A model generated the notes under the pieces. The model searched no databases. It was given only the letters and a program-made list of their open reading frames with translations, and was not told where the DNA came from. The position numbers and the translations under genes were made by a program. Shown here piece after piece: positions 2,788 to 26,838 of a stretch of DNA of 32,263 nt (positions are counted from its first letter, which is position 1; each line of letters begins with the position of its first letter). The DNA is from Elusimicrobiota bacterium. GTDB taxonomy: Bacteria > Elusimicrobiota > Elusimicrobia > Elusimicrobiales > UBA9959. Location of the stretch: positions 1-32,263 of the forward strand of contig WOVA01000039.1 of assembly GCA_009773155.1 (NCBI GenBank), in the 5' to 3' direction.

Positions 2788-3782
2788 GCGGCCCCCGGCT
2801 GGTTTTCCTGGGCACGCCCGGGACCGCCTGCCCGTTCCTTGAATCGCTGGTCTCGGCCGGTTTCGAGGTAGCCGGGGTCATAGCCCAGCCCGACCGTCCC
2901 GTCGGGCGCGGCATGAAGATGTGCTGCCCCCCCGTCAAGAATTCCGCGCTCGCCCTGAACCTTCCCGTATTCCAGCCCGCGTCGGGAGCGGAACTGCGCG
3001 AGGCGGTCGCGGCACTCAAGCCCGACCTCGGCGTGGTGGTGGCCTACGGCCGCCTCATAAAGAAAGAAGTCCTCTCCCTTCCCCCGCTCGGCTTCATAAA
3101 TCTCCATTTTTCGCTGCTGCCCAGGTACCGCGGCGCCGCGCCTGTGCAGTGGTCGCTTATCAACGGCGAGACGGAGACCGGCGTGACCGTCTTTCGCCTG
3201 GACGAGGGCATGGATACCGGCCCCGTCGTCGCCTCGGTCCGCACGCCGGTGGACCCGGCCGAGGACGCGCCCGCGCTTTTCGCCCGCCTGACGGAGCTGG
3301 GACGGGCGCTCCTGGTCTCGTCCGTCAGGGAGATAGGGGCGGGCCGCGCCTCCTTCACTCCGCAGTCCGGGGAGCCGTCTCACGCCCCCAAGATACGGCC
3401 GGCCCTCTCTTTTCTCTCCCCGTCGATGACGCCCGCCGCGGCGTTCGATCTTTTTCGCGGTCTGGCCTGCGGTCCCCGCGCCCGCTTCGCGACGCCGGCC
3501 GGGATGACGGTGCAGGTGCTGAAAGCTTCGCTCCGGCCCCCGACCGTGGACACTATACCTCATGGTGTCCACGGCGCCGGCGTCCCGGGCACGGTAGGCC
3601 ACGTTGAGCCCGGCAGAGGATTTTTTGTAAGATTCACCGGCGGGAGTCTGTTCCTGGAGGAGCTTAAACCGGAAGGGCGCGGCCCCGTCGGCGCGGCCGA
3701 TTTTCTCAACGGCGCCCGGCTCGTCCCCGGCGACGCTCTCATAGTTCCGCCGACCGCCGGAGGCGAAGGTCCCCATAAATGA
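2784..3782 (+). CDS. fmt: Methionyl-tRNA formyltransferase
   Basis: Formylates initiator Met-tRNA with 10-formyl-THF. I start it at the ATG overlapping the def stop (332 residues); an in-frame ATG at 2727 lies inside def and would add 19 unrelated residues. The N-terminal domain has the Rossmann start VFLGTP, the catalytic Asn107, His109 and Asp144, and the signature SLLPRYRGAAPVQW. The C-terminal OB-like domain is shorter and more divergent. Residues ~254-264 are encoded by a palindrome (3544-3574) related to intergenic repeats of this region and appear as an insertion before the conserved PGTV stretch. The stop overlaps the next start at 3779-3782. Confidence 0.96.
   Translation: MSGPRLVFLGTPGTACPFLESLVSAGFEVAGVIAQPDRPVGRGMKMCCPPVKNSALALNLPVFQPASGAELREAVAALKPDLGVVVAYGRLIKKEVLSLPPLGFINLHFSLLPRYRGAAPVQWSLINGETETGVTVFRLDEGMDTGPVVASVRTPVDPAEDAPALFARLTELGRALLVSSVREIGAGRASFTPQSGEPSHAPKIRPALSFLSPSMTPAAAFDLFRGLACGPRARFATPAGMTVQVLKASLRPPTVDTIPHGVHGAGVPGTVGHVEPGRGFFVRFTGGSLFLEELKPEGRGPVGAADFLNGARLVPGDALIVPPTAGGEGPHK
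3544..3574 (+). repeat. R3 palindrome inside fmt
   Basis: CCGTGGACAC (3544-3553) and GTGTCCACGG (3565-3574) form a perfect 10-bp inverted repeat. The interior (ACACTATACCTCATGGTGT) matches the intergenic R3 core ACACCATGCCGCATGGTGT at 15 of 19 positions. It keeps the fmt reading frame and encodes roughly VDTIPHGVHG. Confidence 0.65.
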
Positions 3783-11415: not shown

Positions 11416-11572
11416 CGGAATAACTATTCCGGGGGCATGTCGGCGTGTCAGCACGCAGGACACGGACTCGCGCGCATAGCGCGTCGGTCCTCGGCTCTCG
11501 GCGCTCGCGCTTACGATGCTCGCGCCTCCGAGGCGGTCCTGCTTAGCCGCCTCCCCCGGCTGTCTCCTTAAT
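11416..11572. repeat. R1 nested palindromic element, copy 1
   Basis: The element lies in the 462-bp gene-free gap after upp. It is built of nested inverted repeats: CCGGGGG (11429-11435) with CCCCCGG (11553-11559); GCAGGAC (11455-11461) with GTCCTGC (11536-11542); CCTCGG (11489-11494) with CCGAGG (11528-11533); GGCGC (11500-11504) with GCGCC (11522-11526), around a 17-nt loop. Small hairpins lie at 11416-11431 (CGGAATA/TATTCCG) and 11471-11483 (GC stem, ATA loop). The same architecture occurs at 24437-24707. It has no plausible coding capacity. Confidence 0.8.
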
Positions 11573-11590: not shown

Positions 11591-11791
11591 GGCTTCATTG
11601 CCGGGCCTTCCGAAGCCACATCGGAGGCTTTCCCCAAGCGGAGCGAGGGAACCGGCACTGCCGGACGGGCATGAATGTTCGAGGCCCGAGGCGCTATGCG
11701 CCCGGGCCGAGTTCGTGCCCGGCCGAGCGCAGCGCCGGGTGCATTACAGAAAGCCGAACCCGTGGCGGAGTGAAGGCCCGGCGAGGGAGCC
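11591..11791. repeat. R2 MITE-like element, copy 1
   Basis: About 200 bp bounded by GCCGGGCCTTC (11600-11610) and its exact complement GAAGGCCCGGC (11772-11782), with a weaker outer pair GGCTTC/GGAGCC. The interior (about 11634-11757) closely matches, in reverse orientation, 17540-17670, including CCGGC-ACT-GCCGG and GGCGC-TAT-GCGCC (11690-11702) hairpins. It sits between upp and its terminator. Short open frames across it are repeat-derived, not genes. Confidence 0.8.
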
Positions 11792-11857: not shown

Positions 11858-12568
11858 TCAGTGGGCTTGGTGGGCTATCTTGACCAGCATGTCCTTGTCG
11901 AGAATCCTGAGCGACTTGGTCTCGCGCTTGATGACCTTCTTCTTCTCCAGGTCCGCGAGGATGCGCACCACGGTCTCCAGCGCCAGGCCGGTGATCTCGG
12001 CTATCTCGGTGCGCTTGATGCCGTGGATGGTGGGCATGGACGTGTTCTTGCTCTTGAACGAGACATGCGTCAGCAGGGTCGAGGCCACCTTGGCCTTGGC
12101 GGGCTTGTAGGCCGTGTCCTTGAGCTTGAACTGTATGCGCTTTACCTCGTTGGCCATCTTCTTGAGCATCAGCGGGTAGGTCTTGGGGAACTTCTCCAGG
12201 AAGTTGATGAAGCTCCTGCCGTCGATATGCGACAGCGTTACGGCGTTCATCGCCTCGGCGTTGCAGAAATACTCGGTGCCGGAGAACAGCGCGATATGTC
12301 CGAACAGTTCGCCGGGATGGCGTATCCAGGTTATCATCTGCTGGCCCTTGGCGTCGGTGCTGTACACCTTGGCGCGGCCCCTGCAGACGATGTAGATGCC
12401 GGTAGGCTTCTGCGTCTCGGAGTAGATGATCTGGCCGTCCTTGAGCTGCAGCACGCTGCGGCTCTCGTTCCAGATCTTCTGGGCCGGCGCTTCCAGCGCG
12501 TCGAAAATGCAGTTCTGCCGGAACTGGCAGACATAACAGTTGGTCTTTGTTTTCACTGAGCTTTCCAT
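11858..12568 (-). CDS. Crp/Fnr-family regulator with FNR-type cysteine cluster
   Basis: A 236-residue transcription factor. The start is the ATG at 12568, behind a G-rich Shine-Dalgarno stretch; an upstream in-frame ATG at 12673 would run through the promoter and repeat R4. Residues ~28-125 are a cyclic-nucleotide-type sensor fold. The C-terminus carries a winged helix with recognition helix GLALETVVRILADL, comparable to FNR's GLTVETISRLLGRF. Cys11-x2-Cys14-x5-Cys20 reproduces the spacing of E. coli FNR Cys20/23/29; a fourth ligand could be Cys62 or Cys102, since FNR's Cys122 position is not cysteine. An oxygen- or redox-responsive [4Fe-4S] protein is likely but inferred. Confidence 0.9.
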   Translation of the reverse strand: MESSVKTKTNCYVCQFRQNCIFDALEAPAQKIWNESRSVLQLKDGQIIYSETQKPTGIYIVCRGRAKVYSTDAKGQQMITWIRHPGELFGHIALFSGTEYFCNAEAMNAVTLSHIDGRSFINFLEKFPKTYPLMLKKMANEVKRIQFKLKDTAYKPAKAKVASTLLTHVSFKSKNTSMPTIHGIKRTEIAEITGLALETVVRILADLEKKKVIKRETKSLRILDKDMLVKIAHQAH

Positions 12569-12601
12569 TTCCCTTTTTCCCCCTGCCTGTATTTCACCCC
12601 T

Positions 12602-12610
12602 ATTATAGCA
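12602..12610 (-). promoter_or_regulatory. Extended -10 promoter of the FNR-like gene
   Basis: Read on the minus strand this is TGCTATAAT, an extended -10 motif, 34 bp before the start codon. The -35 region is poor (GACGGG), as expected for an extended -10 promoter. Confidence 0.6.
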
Positions 12611-12636
12611 AATCCGGGGCCTCTCCCGTCGGGAAG

Positions 12637-12690
12637 CGGCCGGTCGCAGTGTTCCCGGCACCGACCGCGGCATAGCCGCCCTGTTCCGGC
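12637..12690. repeat. R4 repeat, intergenic copy
   Basis: In reverse orientation this ~54-bp segment matches 12944-12996 with one 1-nt indel and about four to five substitutions. It contains the hairpin GCGGC-ATA-GCCGC (12667-12679). It lies in the divergent intergenic region between the FNR-like gene and the flippase, upstream of both starts. Confidence 0.8.
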
Positions 12691-12693
12691 AAA

Positions 12694-12699
12694 TATGAT
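12694..12699 (+). promoter_or_regulatory. Possible -10 box for the flippase gene
   Basis: TATGAT lies 18 bp before the ATG. No clear -35 is seen and the leader would be about ten bases with no Shine-Dalgarno sequence, so the call is weak. Confidence 0.3.
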
Positions 12700-12717
12700 A
12701 AACTTTTCCCTCACTCC

Positions 12718-14238
12718 ATGAAGAAGGACATAGGCAGGCTCGGCGGAGAATCGCTCATCTACGGACTTTCCACGGTCGCGGCGCGGCTGCTCACCTTCCT
12801 GCTGATGCCGTTCTACACCCATTACCTGCCGCCGGCGGGCTACGGCGTGGTGGCGGCCGTCTTCTCCTACATCGCTTTCCTCAACATCGTCTACCATTAC
12901 GGCCTGGACCAGTCCTATATGCGCCACCGCTCCGAGGACGCCGGCCGGAACAGGGCGGCATTGCCCGCAGTCGGTGCCGGGAGCACTGCGACCGGCCGGG
13001 CCTGGAGCTCGTCGCTGGCCTGCCTGCTGGCCTCCACGGCCTTCCTGACCCTGCTCATGTGCCTTTTCCCCTCCGCGCTGGCGGGGCTGGCGGGCATAGG
13101 CGCCGATTCCGGGCGGCTGGTGCTCTACGCGGCCGCCATACTGGCGCTGGACACCCTCTCGCTGCTGCCCTTCGCCGAGCTGCGCATGCGGCACAAGGCG
13201 CTGCGCTACGCGCTGGTGCGGACGGCTTCTATCGCGCTCAACGTCGCTCTCAATGTCTATTTCCTGGCCTTCCGGGGCATGGGCGTGGAAGGCGTCTTCC
13301 TGGCCAACATCCTCTCGTCGGCGCTCTCGCTGCTGCTGCTCTCGGACCTGCTCTTTTCGGCCATGCCGTCCTTCGACCGGGGCATGGCCCGCCGGCTGCT
13401 CTCCTTCGCCCTGCCGCTGCTGCCCGCCGGGCTGGGCGCGATGGCGGTGCAGGTCATAGACCGGCCGATAATGCTGGCGCTCTCGGGCGAGGCCGCCGTC
13501 GGCCTCTACCAGGCCGGCTACCGGCTGGGCATCTTCATGATGCTGATAGTGAGCATGTTCGACGCCGCCTGGCGCCCGTTCTTCCTGGAGCGGGCGGATA
13601 AGCCGGAGGCGCCGCCGGTCTTCGCGCGGGTGCTGACCTATTTCACGGCGCTGGCGGCCTGGACGCTGGTGGGAGTCTCGCTGCTCATCGAGGACGCCGT
13701 GAAGGCGGACCTGGGCGGCTTCTCGCTGATACACCCCGATTACTGGGCCGGGCTCAGGATAGTCCCCGTGGTGCTGGCGGCCTACCTGCTCAACGGCGTT
13801 TATGTGAATTTCCTGGCGCCGGTAATCATCGCAAAACGCACCGGCGAGATACTTAAAGTCACGCTGGCCGGCGCGGCCGCCAGCGTGGCCGCCAACTTCC
13901 TGCTCATCCCGCCGTTCGGCGCCATGGGCGCGGCGGCCGCGGCCCTGCTGGCTTACGCCGTCATGGCCGGCCTTATGTACCGCGCCGGCCGGGGGCTCAT
14001 GCAGGTTCCCTACGAGTGGGGACGGCTGTCGAGGCTGGCCGCGGTTACCTGCCTCTTCCTCGCCGGCCATTACGCCTTCGGTTCCGGCGCCCACGGCCCC
14101 GCCGCCTTCGGCGTGAAAGCCGCCGCCGCCCTGCTTTTCCCCGCCGCCCTCTGGCTGGCGGGCTTCTTCCTGCCCGGCGAAAAAGCCGAGGCCGCCGCTC
14201 TCCTGTCGCGTTTCACGCGCAAGAAGCCGGCGGCCTGA
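12718..14238 (+). CDS. Wzx-like polysaccharide/lipid flippase (MOP superfamily)
   Basis: A 506-residue integral membrane protein with about 12-14 hydrophobic segments. The N-terminus GGESLIYGLSTVAARLLTFL and the MPFYTHYLPPAGYGVVA stretch are typical of oligosaccharide flippases of the MOP/MATE superfamily, which move lipid-linked glycans across the inner membrane. Residues ~76-93 (around RNRAALPAVGAGSTATG) are encoded by an in-frame copy of repeat R4 and look like an insertion in the loop after the second helix. No glycosyltransferase genes lie nearby, so the substrate is unknown. The gene is divergent from the FNR-like regulator and converges with the ABC permease 19 bp away. Confidence 0.87.
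   Translation: MKKDIGRLGGESLIYGLSTVAARLLTFLLMPFYTHYLPPAGYGVVAAVFSYIAFLNIVYHYGLDQSYMRHRSEDAGRNRAALPAVGAGSTATGRAWSSSLACLLASTAFLTLLMCLFPSALAGLAGIGADSGRLVLYAAAILALDTLSLLPFAELRMRHKALRYALVRTASIALNVALNVYFLAFRGMGVEGVFLANILSSALSLLLLSDLLFSAMPSFDRGMARRLLSFALPLLPAGLGAMAVQVIDRPIMLALSGEAAVGLYQAGYRLGIFMMLIVSMFDAAWRPFFLERADKPEAPPVFARVLTYFTALAAWTLVGVSLLIEDAVKADLGGFSLIHPDYWAGLRIVPVVLAAYLLNGVYVNFLAPVIIAKRTGEILKVTLAGAAASVAANFLLIPPFGAMGAAAAALLAYAVMAGLMYRAGRGLMQVPYEWGRLSRLAAVTCLFLAGHYAFGSGAHGPAAFGVKAAAALLFPAALWLAGFFLPGEKAEAAALLSRFTRKKPAA
12944..12996. repeat. R4 repeat inserted in frame in the flippase gene
   Basis: This near-identical inverted copy of 12637-12690 is read in frame as about 18 residues rich in Ala, Gly and Arg. 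The 1-nt indel relative to the intergenic copy lies in the central hairpin loop, where ATA-type bases become ATT. Confidence 0.8.
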
Positions 14239-17513: not shown

Positions 17514-17723
17514 AGCGGCTTCCCGCCGGCCCTTCCGGACCGCCGCGGTCCGGCTTTTTGAAATACACCCTGCGCTTCGCTCGGCCGGGCACGAACTCGG
17601 CCCGGGCGCATAGCGCCTCGGGCCTCAGACATTCATGCCCGTCCGGCAGTGCCGGTACCCTCACTCCGCTTGGGAAAAAACCTCCATCATGCGGCTTACC
17701 GGAAGGGCCGGCGGAAATCCGCT
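17514..17723. repeat. R2 MITE-like element, copy 2
   Basis: Bounded by perfect 16-bp inverted repeats CCGCCGGCCCTTCCGG (17523-17538) and CCGGAAGGGCCGGCGG (17699-17714), plus an outer AGCGG/CCGCT pair (17514-17518, 17719-17723) separated by 4 bp on each side. The interior matches 11634-11757 in reverse orientation, including GGCGC-ATA-GCGCC at 17605-17617. It fills the whole gap between the CoA-binding protein gene and pcm. Confidence 0.87.
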
Positions 17724-22136: not shown

Positions 22137-22165
22137 CGGGGACACCATGCCGCATGGTGTCCCCG
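22137..22165. repeat. R3 palindrome between serA and DUF1015
   Basis: CGGGGACACCATG (22137-22149) and CATGGTGTCCCCG (22153-22165) form a perfect 13-bp stem with loop CCG. It lies just after the serA stop and before the DUF1015 leader. With no T-run it is not a normal terminator. Confidence 0.85.
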
Positions 22166-24307: not shown

Positions 24308-24326
24308 GTCTTTCCTCCGTTGGTGC

Positions 24327-24353
24327 GGGGACACCATGCCGCATGGTGTCCCC
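24327..24353. repeat. R3 palindrome upstream of serC
   Basis: GGGGACACCATG (24327-24338) and CATGGTGTCCCC (24342-24353) form a perfect 12-bp stem with loop CCG, identical in core to 22137-22165. It would lie in the serC leader, about 20 bp before the start codon. Confidence 0.85.
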
Positions 24354-24436: not shown

Positions 24437-24707
24437 CCTAATTAAGGAGGAATTATTCGGGGGCATGACGGCGCGACAGCCCGCGGGGTACGGACTCGCG
24501 CGCATAGCGCGTCGGTCACGCATAGCCCGCATAGCGGGCTTGCGCGACCCCACCTCGGCGTTTTCGCTTACGCATGAAAACGCCTGCGGCCTTGCGGACC
24601 TGCACCGCAGGTCCTCACCTCGGCTCTCGCCGCTCGCGCTTACGATGCTCGCGGCTCCGAGGCGCCCCCGCCGGGCTGTCGCGCCGTCTCCCCCGGTTGT
24701 TCCCTTA
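24437..24707. repeat. R1 nested palindromic element, copy 2
   Basis: A larger relative of 11416-11572. Its outer arm pairs GACGGCGCGACAGCCC (24467-24482) perfectly with 24673-24688, flanked by CGGGGG (24458-24463) and CCCCCG (24690-24695), and continues inward with GCGGGG/CCCCGC. The inner core keeps the copy-1 geometry: CCTCGG (24618-24623), GCCGC (24629-24633), 17-nt loop, GCGGC (24651-24655), CCGAGG (24657-24662). Extra hairpins lie at 24524-24540 (AGCCCGC-ATA-GCGGGCT), about 24557-24584 (GGCGTTTTC/GAAAACGCC) and about 24597-24615 (GGACCTGC/GCAGGTCC). The right end runs into the RNase R stop codon. Confidence 0.85.
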
Positions 24708-26774: not shown

Positions 26775-26810
26775 TTATCTTTTACTCTCCATGTATGTAA
26801 CCGGACTTTC

Positions 26811-26838
26811 CGGGACACCATGCCGCAGGGTGTCCCCG
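26811..26838. repeat. R3 palindrome in the RNase R leader
   Basis: GGGACACC (26812-26819) pairs with GGTGTCCC (26829-26836) around an ATGCCGCAG centre that differs by one base from the R3 consensus (A/G mismatch). It lies 37 bp before the rnr start. Confidence 0.8.

Follow-up and report, generated by a model that had tools for sequence, protein, structure and literature searches.

How a short repeat came to lie in frame inside a protein gene, with an inverted copy of itself just upstream, is the question raised by this locus. The window, the whole 32,263-nt stretch of DNA analysed here, is contig C70 of the 2.76-Mb genome of an Elusimicrobiota bacterium (G000), and the gene (12718..14238, + strand) encodes a polysaccharide flippase of the Wzx/MOP type with matches to Pfam PF01943 (Polysacc_synt) and PF13440. 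The stretches at 12637-12690 (+) and 12944-12998 (-) were found to be inverted copies of a single repeat, 91% identical to each other and 94% identical over a gap-free core of 34 nt, and their match is not due to chance (E = 7e-15 in a DNA search). The near-identical inverted pair described in the initial annotation was thus confirmed, and it forms part of a larger set: 42 copies were found in the host genome by DNA search and at least 95, a lower bound, with a covariance model. Judged by filled and empty sites, the two window copies are recent, mutually independent insertions of this genome-wide element.

The exact limits of both units were fixed via empty sites in relatives; all genomes were draft MAGs, and insertion was inferred by comparing filled with empty sites. 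Copy A (12638..12687, + strand; 71.5 bits with covariance model R1) is a 50-nt unit GGCC...TTCC without a bulge in hairpin 2. It is intergenic, with a divergent Crp-type regulator gene on one side and the flippase gene on the other, and about 50 bp are missing at the corresponding site in three congeneric MAGs (G017, G018 and G019). Copy B (12947..12997, - strand; 87.1 bits with R1) is a 51-nt unit in frame within the flippase gene, and exactly 51 bp or 17 residues are missing from the same three genomes as well as from 10 remoter orthologs. The two copies had been treated as one unit, a pairing which did not hold up, since they are separate insertions of 50 and 51 bp, each missing in all three congeners. 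In G019 and G017, where the target of copy B (12939..13001, + strand) is unfilled, it reads GACGCCGGCCGGGCC, and CCGGCCGG now flanks the copy on both sides; the empty-site sequence in G019, G017 and G018 is GAGGACG-CCGGCCGG-GCC or similar. An in-frame ATG at 12673 within copy A can be read from the divergent Crp-type gene (12568-12673), so that automatic annotation may stretch the N-terminus of the Crp-type protein into the repeat; the protein more probably starts with MESSVKTK, near 12568. Scanning the copy A region (12540-12760) for sigma-70 promoters gave no match.

In the flippase, the insert corresponds to residues 76-92, GRNRAALPAVGAGSTAT. The protein is 84-95% identical in the three congeneric MAGs, where it is short by exactly 17 residues. 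Preservation of the frame had been read correctly in the initial annotation, but the insert had been put at about 18 residues rather than 17; the alignment of orthologs proposed there as a check bore the insertion out, as exactly residues 76-92 are missing from 13 of the 13 aligned sequences, whose identity ranges from 95 to 55%. The stretch that holds the insert is hydrophilic and is flanked by hydrophobic segments with centres near residues 50 and 110, a position that fits the loop following helix 2.

The length missing at empty sites was a net 51 bp at about 15 loci, 54, 60 or 99 bp elsewhere and 50 bp at copy A. Comparison of these sites defined a clean unit GGCC...TTCC inserted before G(G/T)C and usually behind CC; G(G/T)C is frequent on one side of the empty sites and CC is likewise preferred on the other, giving a loose target preference CC^G(G/T)C. 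The junctions often have 1-8 nt common to the element end and the target, and are ambiguous over 8 nt where the target is CCGGCCGG. At sites such as GGGGAT^GTCC and GGA^GAGG a single base is shared, so there is no target duplication. This agrees with a host repeat in the distant genome G174, some copies of which carry a 48-nt unit at GGA^GAGG; the filled copies are longer by exactly 48 nt, and nothing is duplicated. In G000, at least two copies of the element occupy the middle of a 28-nt palindrome. The G174 repeat itself (L272, L273 and L275) is a palindrome of ~130 bp; most of the copies examined contain, at one spot, a 48-nt relative of the element, and others are empty there, which suggests that the smaller element travels with the larger repeat.

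The element is built to a common plan of ~48-51 nt: stem-TCGCAGWGCTC-stem, a ACCGACTG linker, stem-AAT-stem and a TG[AT]TCC tail. In copy B, hairpin 1 (12976..12996, - strand) has the stem GCCGG/CCGGC, with five pairs changed on both sides, and the loop TCGCAGTGCTC, while hairpin 2 (12955..12968, - strand) has the stem GCGG(n)C/GCCGC and the loop AAT. An alignment of 66 copies gave two hairpins with 98.7% of cells paired and six of 11 pairs changed on both sides (25 double-change cells against 3.4 in shuffles), and RNAalifold recovered the same fold unaided. Members from another family of the class keep the plan with different stems, namely stem-TCGCAGWGCTC-stem, ACC, a second hairpin and a TTCC or CTCC tail. 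When these distant members were aligned jointly, 99.2% of cells were paired and seven of 11 pairs carried double changes (29 against 6.8 in shuffles). The compensatory changes in these alignments demonstrate that the single-strand fold has been kept, remote families of the phylum included; part of the covariation could come from hairpin-templated mutation instead of selection.

A second subfamily of 48 nt, with for example the loop TCGTATAACTC, is present in the same genome (L078:8972-9025, L075:2470-2523 and L075:8018-8071), and copies of it are nested in 51-nt copies at L003 and L187. Judged by sequence, forms of greater length, 99 nt and about 123 nt, are interpreted as nested insertions of sister elements. 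An apparent split element in L078, with halves 1.3 kb apart, was rejected, as it comprises a full second-subfamily copy and a chance match.

Searches with the covariance model found 45 copies in G010, 17 in G018, 10 in G019 and 7 in G017, the last of these genomes being 78% complete. At C9, C10, C29, C42 and C73 of G000, copies are paired head to tail with a period of exactly 51 nt, and G010 has triples. Most copies with an available orthologous site are missing in the relative, and few are held in common (e.g. L082_17262 with G019 and L089_9256 with G017). A scan of 84,980 species genomes for the exact core pattern gave matches in Elusimicrobia alone, the carriers being the Elusimicrobia/Elusimicrobiales MAGs UBA11179, WAS_Bin_5, Ess09-09 and NC_groundwater_1498, and the exact element pattern had no match in viral contigs. 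In a further family of the class, model R1 matched weakly. With model R2 the family was detected in 15 of 341 Elusimicrobiota genomes, representing nine genera and five families, under strict filters and a cap per genome that make a negative genome no proof of absence. Against Rfam, the window held no family at the gathering threshold, and two relatives with long forms gave sub-threshold chance matches only.

Taken at the level of sequence, these comparisons establish that the element is mobile, that it moves as a clean unit with a conserved fold, and that it is tolerated in genes. We consider it probable that it is a non-autonomous selfish mini-element of two hairpins, moved in trans by a HUH/Y1-like enzyme that reads a folded single strand. 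The element has multiplied recently in this Elusimicrobiota lineage, and the burst to at least 95 copies, set against the counts in the congeners and in G010, was counted in favour of this explanation. The candidate enzyme would recognise the folded single strand and join it beside a short target, in the mode of HUH/Y1 (IS200/IS605-type) transposases, which among enzymes that insert single strands bordered by hairpins, and do so without duplication, are the best-known type. Likeness of the element's own 3' end to the preferred target would account for the exact head-to-tail 51-nt arrays. Nothing specific would be given to the host.

Non-autonomous derivatives of IS200/IS605 (Y1) elements and REPINs have hairpins near both ends, cause no target duplication and adjoin a short target motif. 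The present element resembles them in its clean insertion without target-site duplication and in its subterminal hairpins, conserved as a single-strand structure. It differs in that no Y1 gene with matching ends was found: among the 13 Y1-transposase genes of G000, G010 and G017-G019 there was no mobilising enzyme for the element, no autonomous relative with matching ends lay near them, and none was bordered by element copies, the nearest of which lies ~570 bp off, in G010. Most of the 13 are flanked by different inverted or direct repeats, several of the GGGGAC type, and the palindromes found with Y1 genes in these genomes are not those of the element. Y1 genes are near-universal in the family and their presence does not track that of the element; a Y1-transposase partner was rejected, these genes being common in the family yet, at the 13 loci, not bordered by the element. 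Classical MITEs, which depend on DDE transposases, are likewise short, non-coding, mobile and present in many copies, but the element has neither long terminal inverted repeats nor target-site duplications.

A broader version can be put forward tentatively, in which an unknown enzyme mobilises a superfamily of mini-elements, recognised as single strands, in at least five Elusimicrobiota families. A bulged base in hairpin 2 of the 51-nt lineage would then have made the unit divisible by three, opening the niche of essential genes and leading to the burst. Somewhat doubtful, to our minds, is spread of the same mobile repeat with no transposase at all, either through RNA copying by reverse transcription or through hairpin-promoted template switching at sequences such as CCGG during replication or repair. 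The 1-8 nt frequently common to element end and target would fit such a process, as would the frequent swapping of both bases of a hairpin pair together, expected of hairpin-templated correction, and the want of a transposase partner among the 13 Y1 genes. Against it, the ends of the unit are constant even at the one-base sites GGGGAT^GTCC and GGA^GAGG, and the loop and tail sequences are conserved across families, which suggests a specific recogniser.

Copies of the element often lie inside genes. We sampled 559 kb around known copies, with 57 copies in all, and judged coding status by codon statistics and homologs; the fractions of coding copies are biased by that choice of sample. Coding sequence continued in one frame on both sides of 19 of the 57 copies. 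All 19 are open in the frame used, and the core lengths of 18 share one class modulo three, the exception being a copy near the C-terminus of PurQ. Since 51 nt is a multiple of three and five of the six frames are stop-free in 48-51 of 51 copies, insertions into genes keep the frame and add 17 residues. At 12 sampled gene loci, including argS, kdsB, ftsX and hprK, the relatives are short by exactly 17, 18, 20 or 24 residues, with the frame intact and no stop; the flanks are mostly 64-98% identical, that on the left at L069 matching at only 6 of 10 positions. Further in-frame copies are found in cysS, pheS, purQ and nuoC. By Pfam and NCBIfam the hosts are CysS, ArgS, PheS (two tandem copies), KdsB, PurQ (two copies), NuoC, HprK, FtsX, PUFA-synthase-like FabA and ketoacyl-synthase proteins, a GNAT protein, a TsaD-domain protein and others. 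The KdsB insert appears as extra residues when aligned with solved KdsB, and that of PheS falls in the linker joining the N-terminal and catalytic domains; some insertions, as in kdsB and a protein kinase, are within conserved domains. G010 has triple arrays of 153 nt that keep the reading frame of three genes, those for a radical SAM protein, an O-antigen ligase and CoaB.

Selection of the encoded peptide or of an RNA motif for a host function would agree with the strong conservation of fold and loops, but we regard it as very unlikely. Genes use both orientations and all six frames of the element and so encode unrelated peptides, and conservation therefore does not lie in the peptide; many copies are intergenic and most insertions are missing in close relatives. 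Ribosomes bypass inserts in the byps of yeast mitochondria, and inserts in essential enzymes, at times in the conserved domains mentioned above, might invite the idea that the element is cut from the mRNA or bypassed rather than translated. This is harder still to credit, as an element that is skipped would be free to shift the frame, which is kept so consistently here. Least credible of all is that the inverted pair at 12638-12997, its copies ~260 bp apart, acts as a switch inverting the flippase start or as a long regulatory stem: the copies were inserted separately, most other copies are single, and the promoter-start inversion raised in the initial annotation finds no support, the intervening segment having the same, ancestral orientation in G017, G018 and G019.

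Other repeats were also seen in the window. A different 28-nt palindrome, CGGGGACACCATGCCGCATGGTGTCCCC, occurs at 3545-3572, 22137-22164, 24326-24353 and 26810-26837 and has 93 BLAST matches, both strands counted, in the sampled genome. Within it, GGGGACAC matches GGGGWSAS, the motif at the ends of Y1 transposase genes flanked by TIRs (PMC3733652); palindromes with GGGGACAC also border several of the Y1 genes in this genus. The copy at 3545-3572 is in frame within fmt (methionyl-tRNA formyltransferase, NCBIfam match), making this a second repeat family that enters coding sequence. A diverged two-part repeat, GGACTCGCGCGCATAGCGCGTCGGTC..., is found at 11430-11542 and 24458-24671 (88-91% identical), with one more copy in the sampled genome, and an inverted 132-nt repeat at 11629-11760 and 17547-17678 (92% identical) has one more copy in L075.

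The mini-element is comparable in its behaviour to two kinds of known intragenic repeats. Rickettsia palindromic elements (RPEs) are described, in the passages of PMC10969869 that treat them, as palindromes of about 150 nt lying in frame in many unrelated protein genes and lengthening the product (Ogata et al. 2000/2002). The likeness to RPEs drawn in the initial annotation stands as regards behaviour, a palindromic repeat in frame in unrelated protein genes being what is found here as well. Kinship in sequence does not: no common sequence was found, as judged by the core pattern scan of 84,980 species, the core pattern occurs only in Elusimicrobia, and the CGTC end tag reported for some RPEs is missing. 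The present element also differs in its length of 48-51 nt, against the figure given in those passages, in its Elusimicrobiota host, and in the two covarying hairpins, clean insertion site and 51-nt head-to-tail arrays documented here. GTAG- and CGTC-tagged REPs also occur within ORFs, for example in Opitutus terrae and Rickettsia conorii, where they encode 20-30 or more residues, and the CGTC repeats likewise have no dedicated transposase (PMC3733652). The element shares with them the form of short palindromes, single or grouped, within ORFs, but it ends in GGCC...TTCC(GG) instead of GTAG or CGTC, its unit comprises two hairpins with conserved spacing and loops, and, unlike GTAG REPs and their RAYTs, its copies do not flank a Y1 gene at any of the 13 loci. 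Since the tags are missing, the pattern scan gave no match beyond Elusimicrobia and Rfam gave none, the element is, on sequence grounds, a new family with a defined unit and fold that shows a known kind of behaviour.

Selfish palindromes in frame in essential proteins have so far been described chiefly for Rickettsia, and intragenic REPs for a small number of further bacteria. The present family is unrelated to these and belongs to a different phylum; its numerous recent insertions, the clear empty sites in closely related genomes, its defined unit and its covarying fold make both the mechanism and the tolerance of proteins directly testable. It shows that small repeats can repeatedly lengthen enzymes, tRNA synthetases among them, by whole codons, and it carries a warning for annotation: where a 17-residue insert in one of these genomes is otherwise unexplained, it is mobile DNA.
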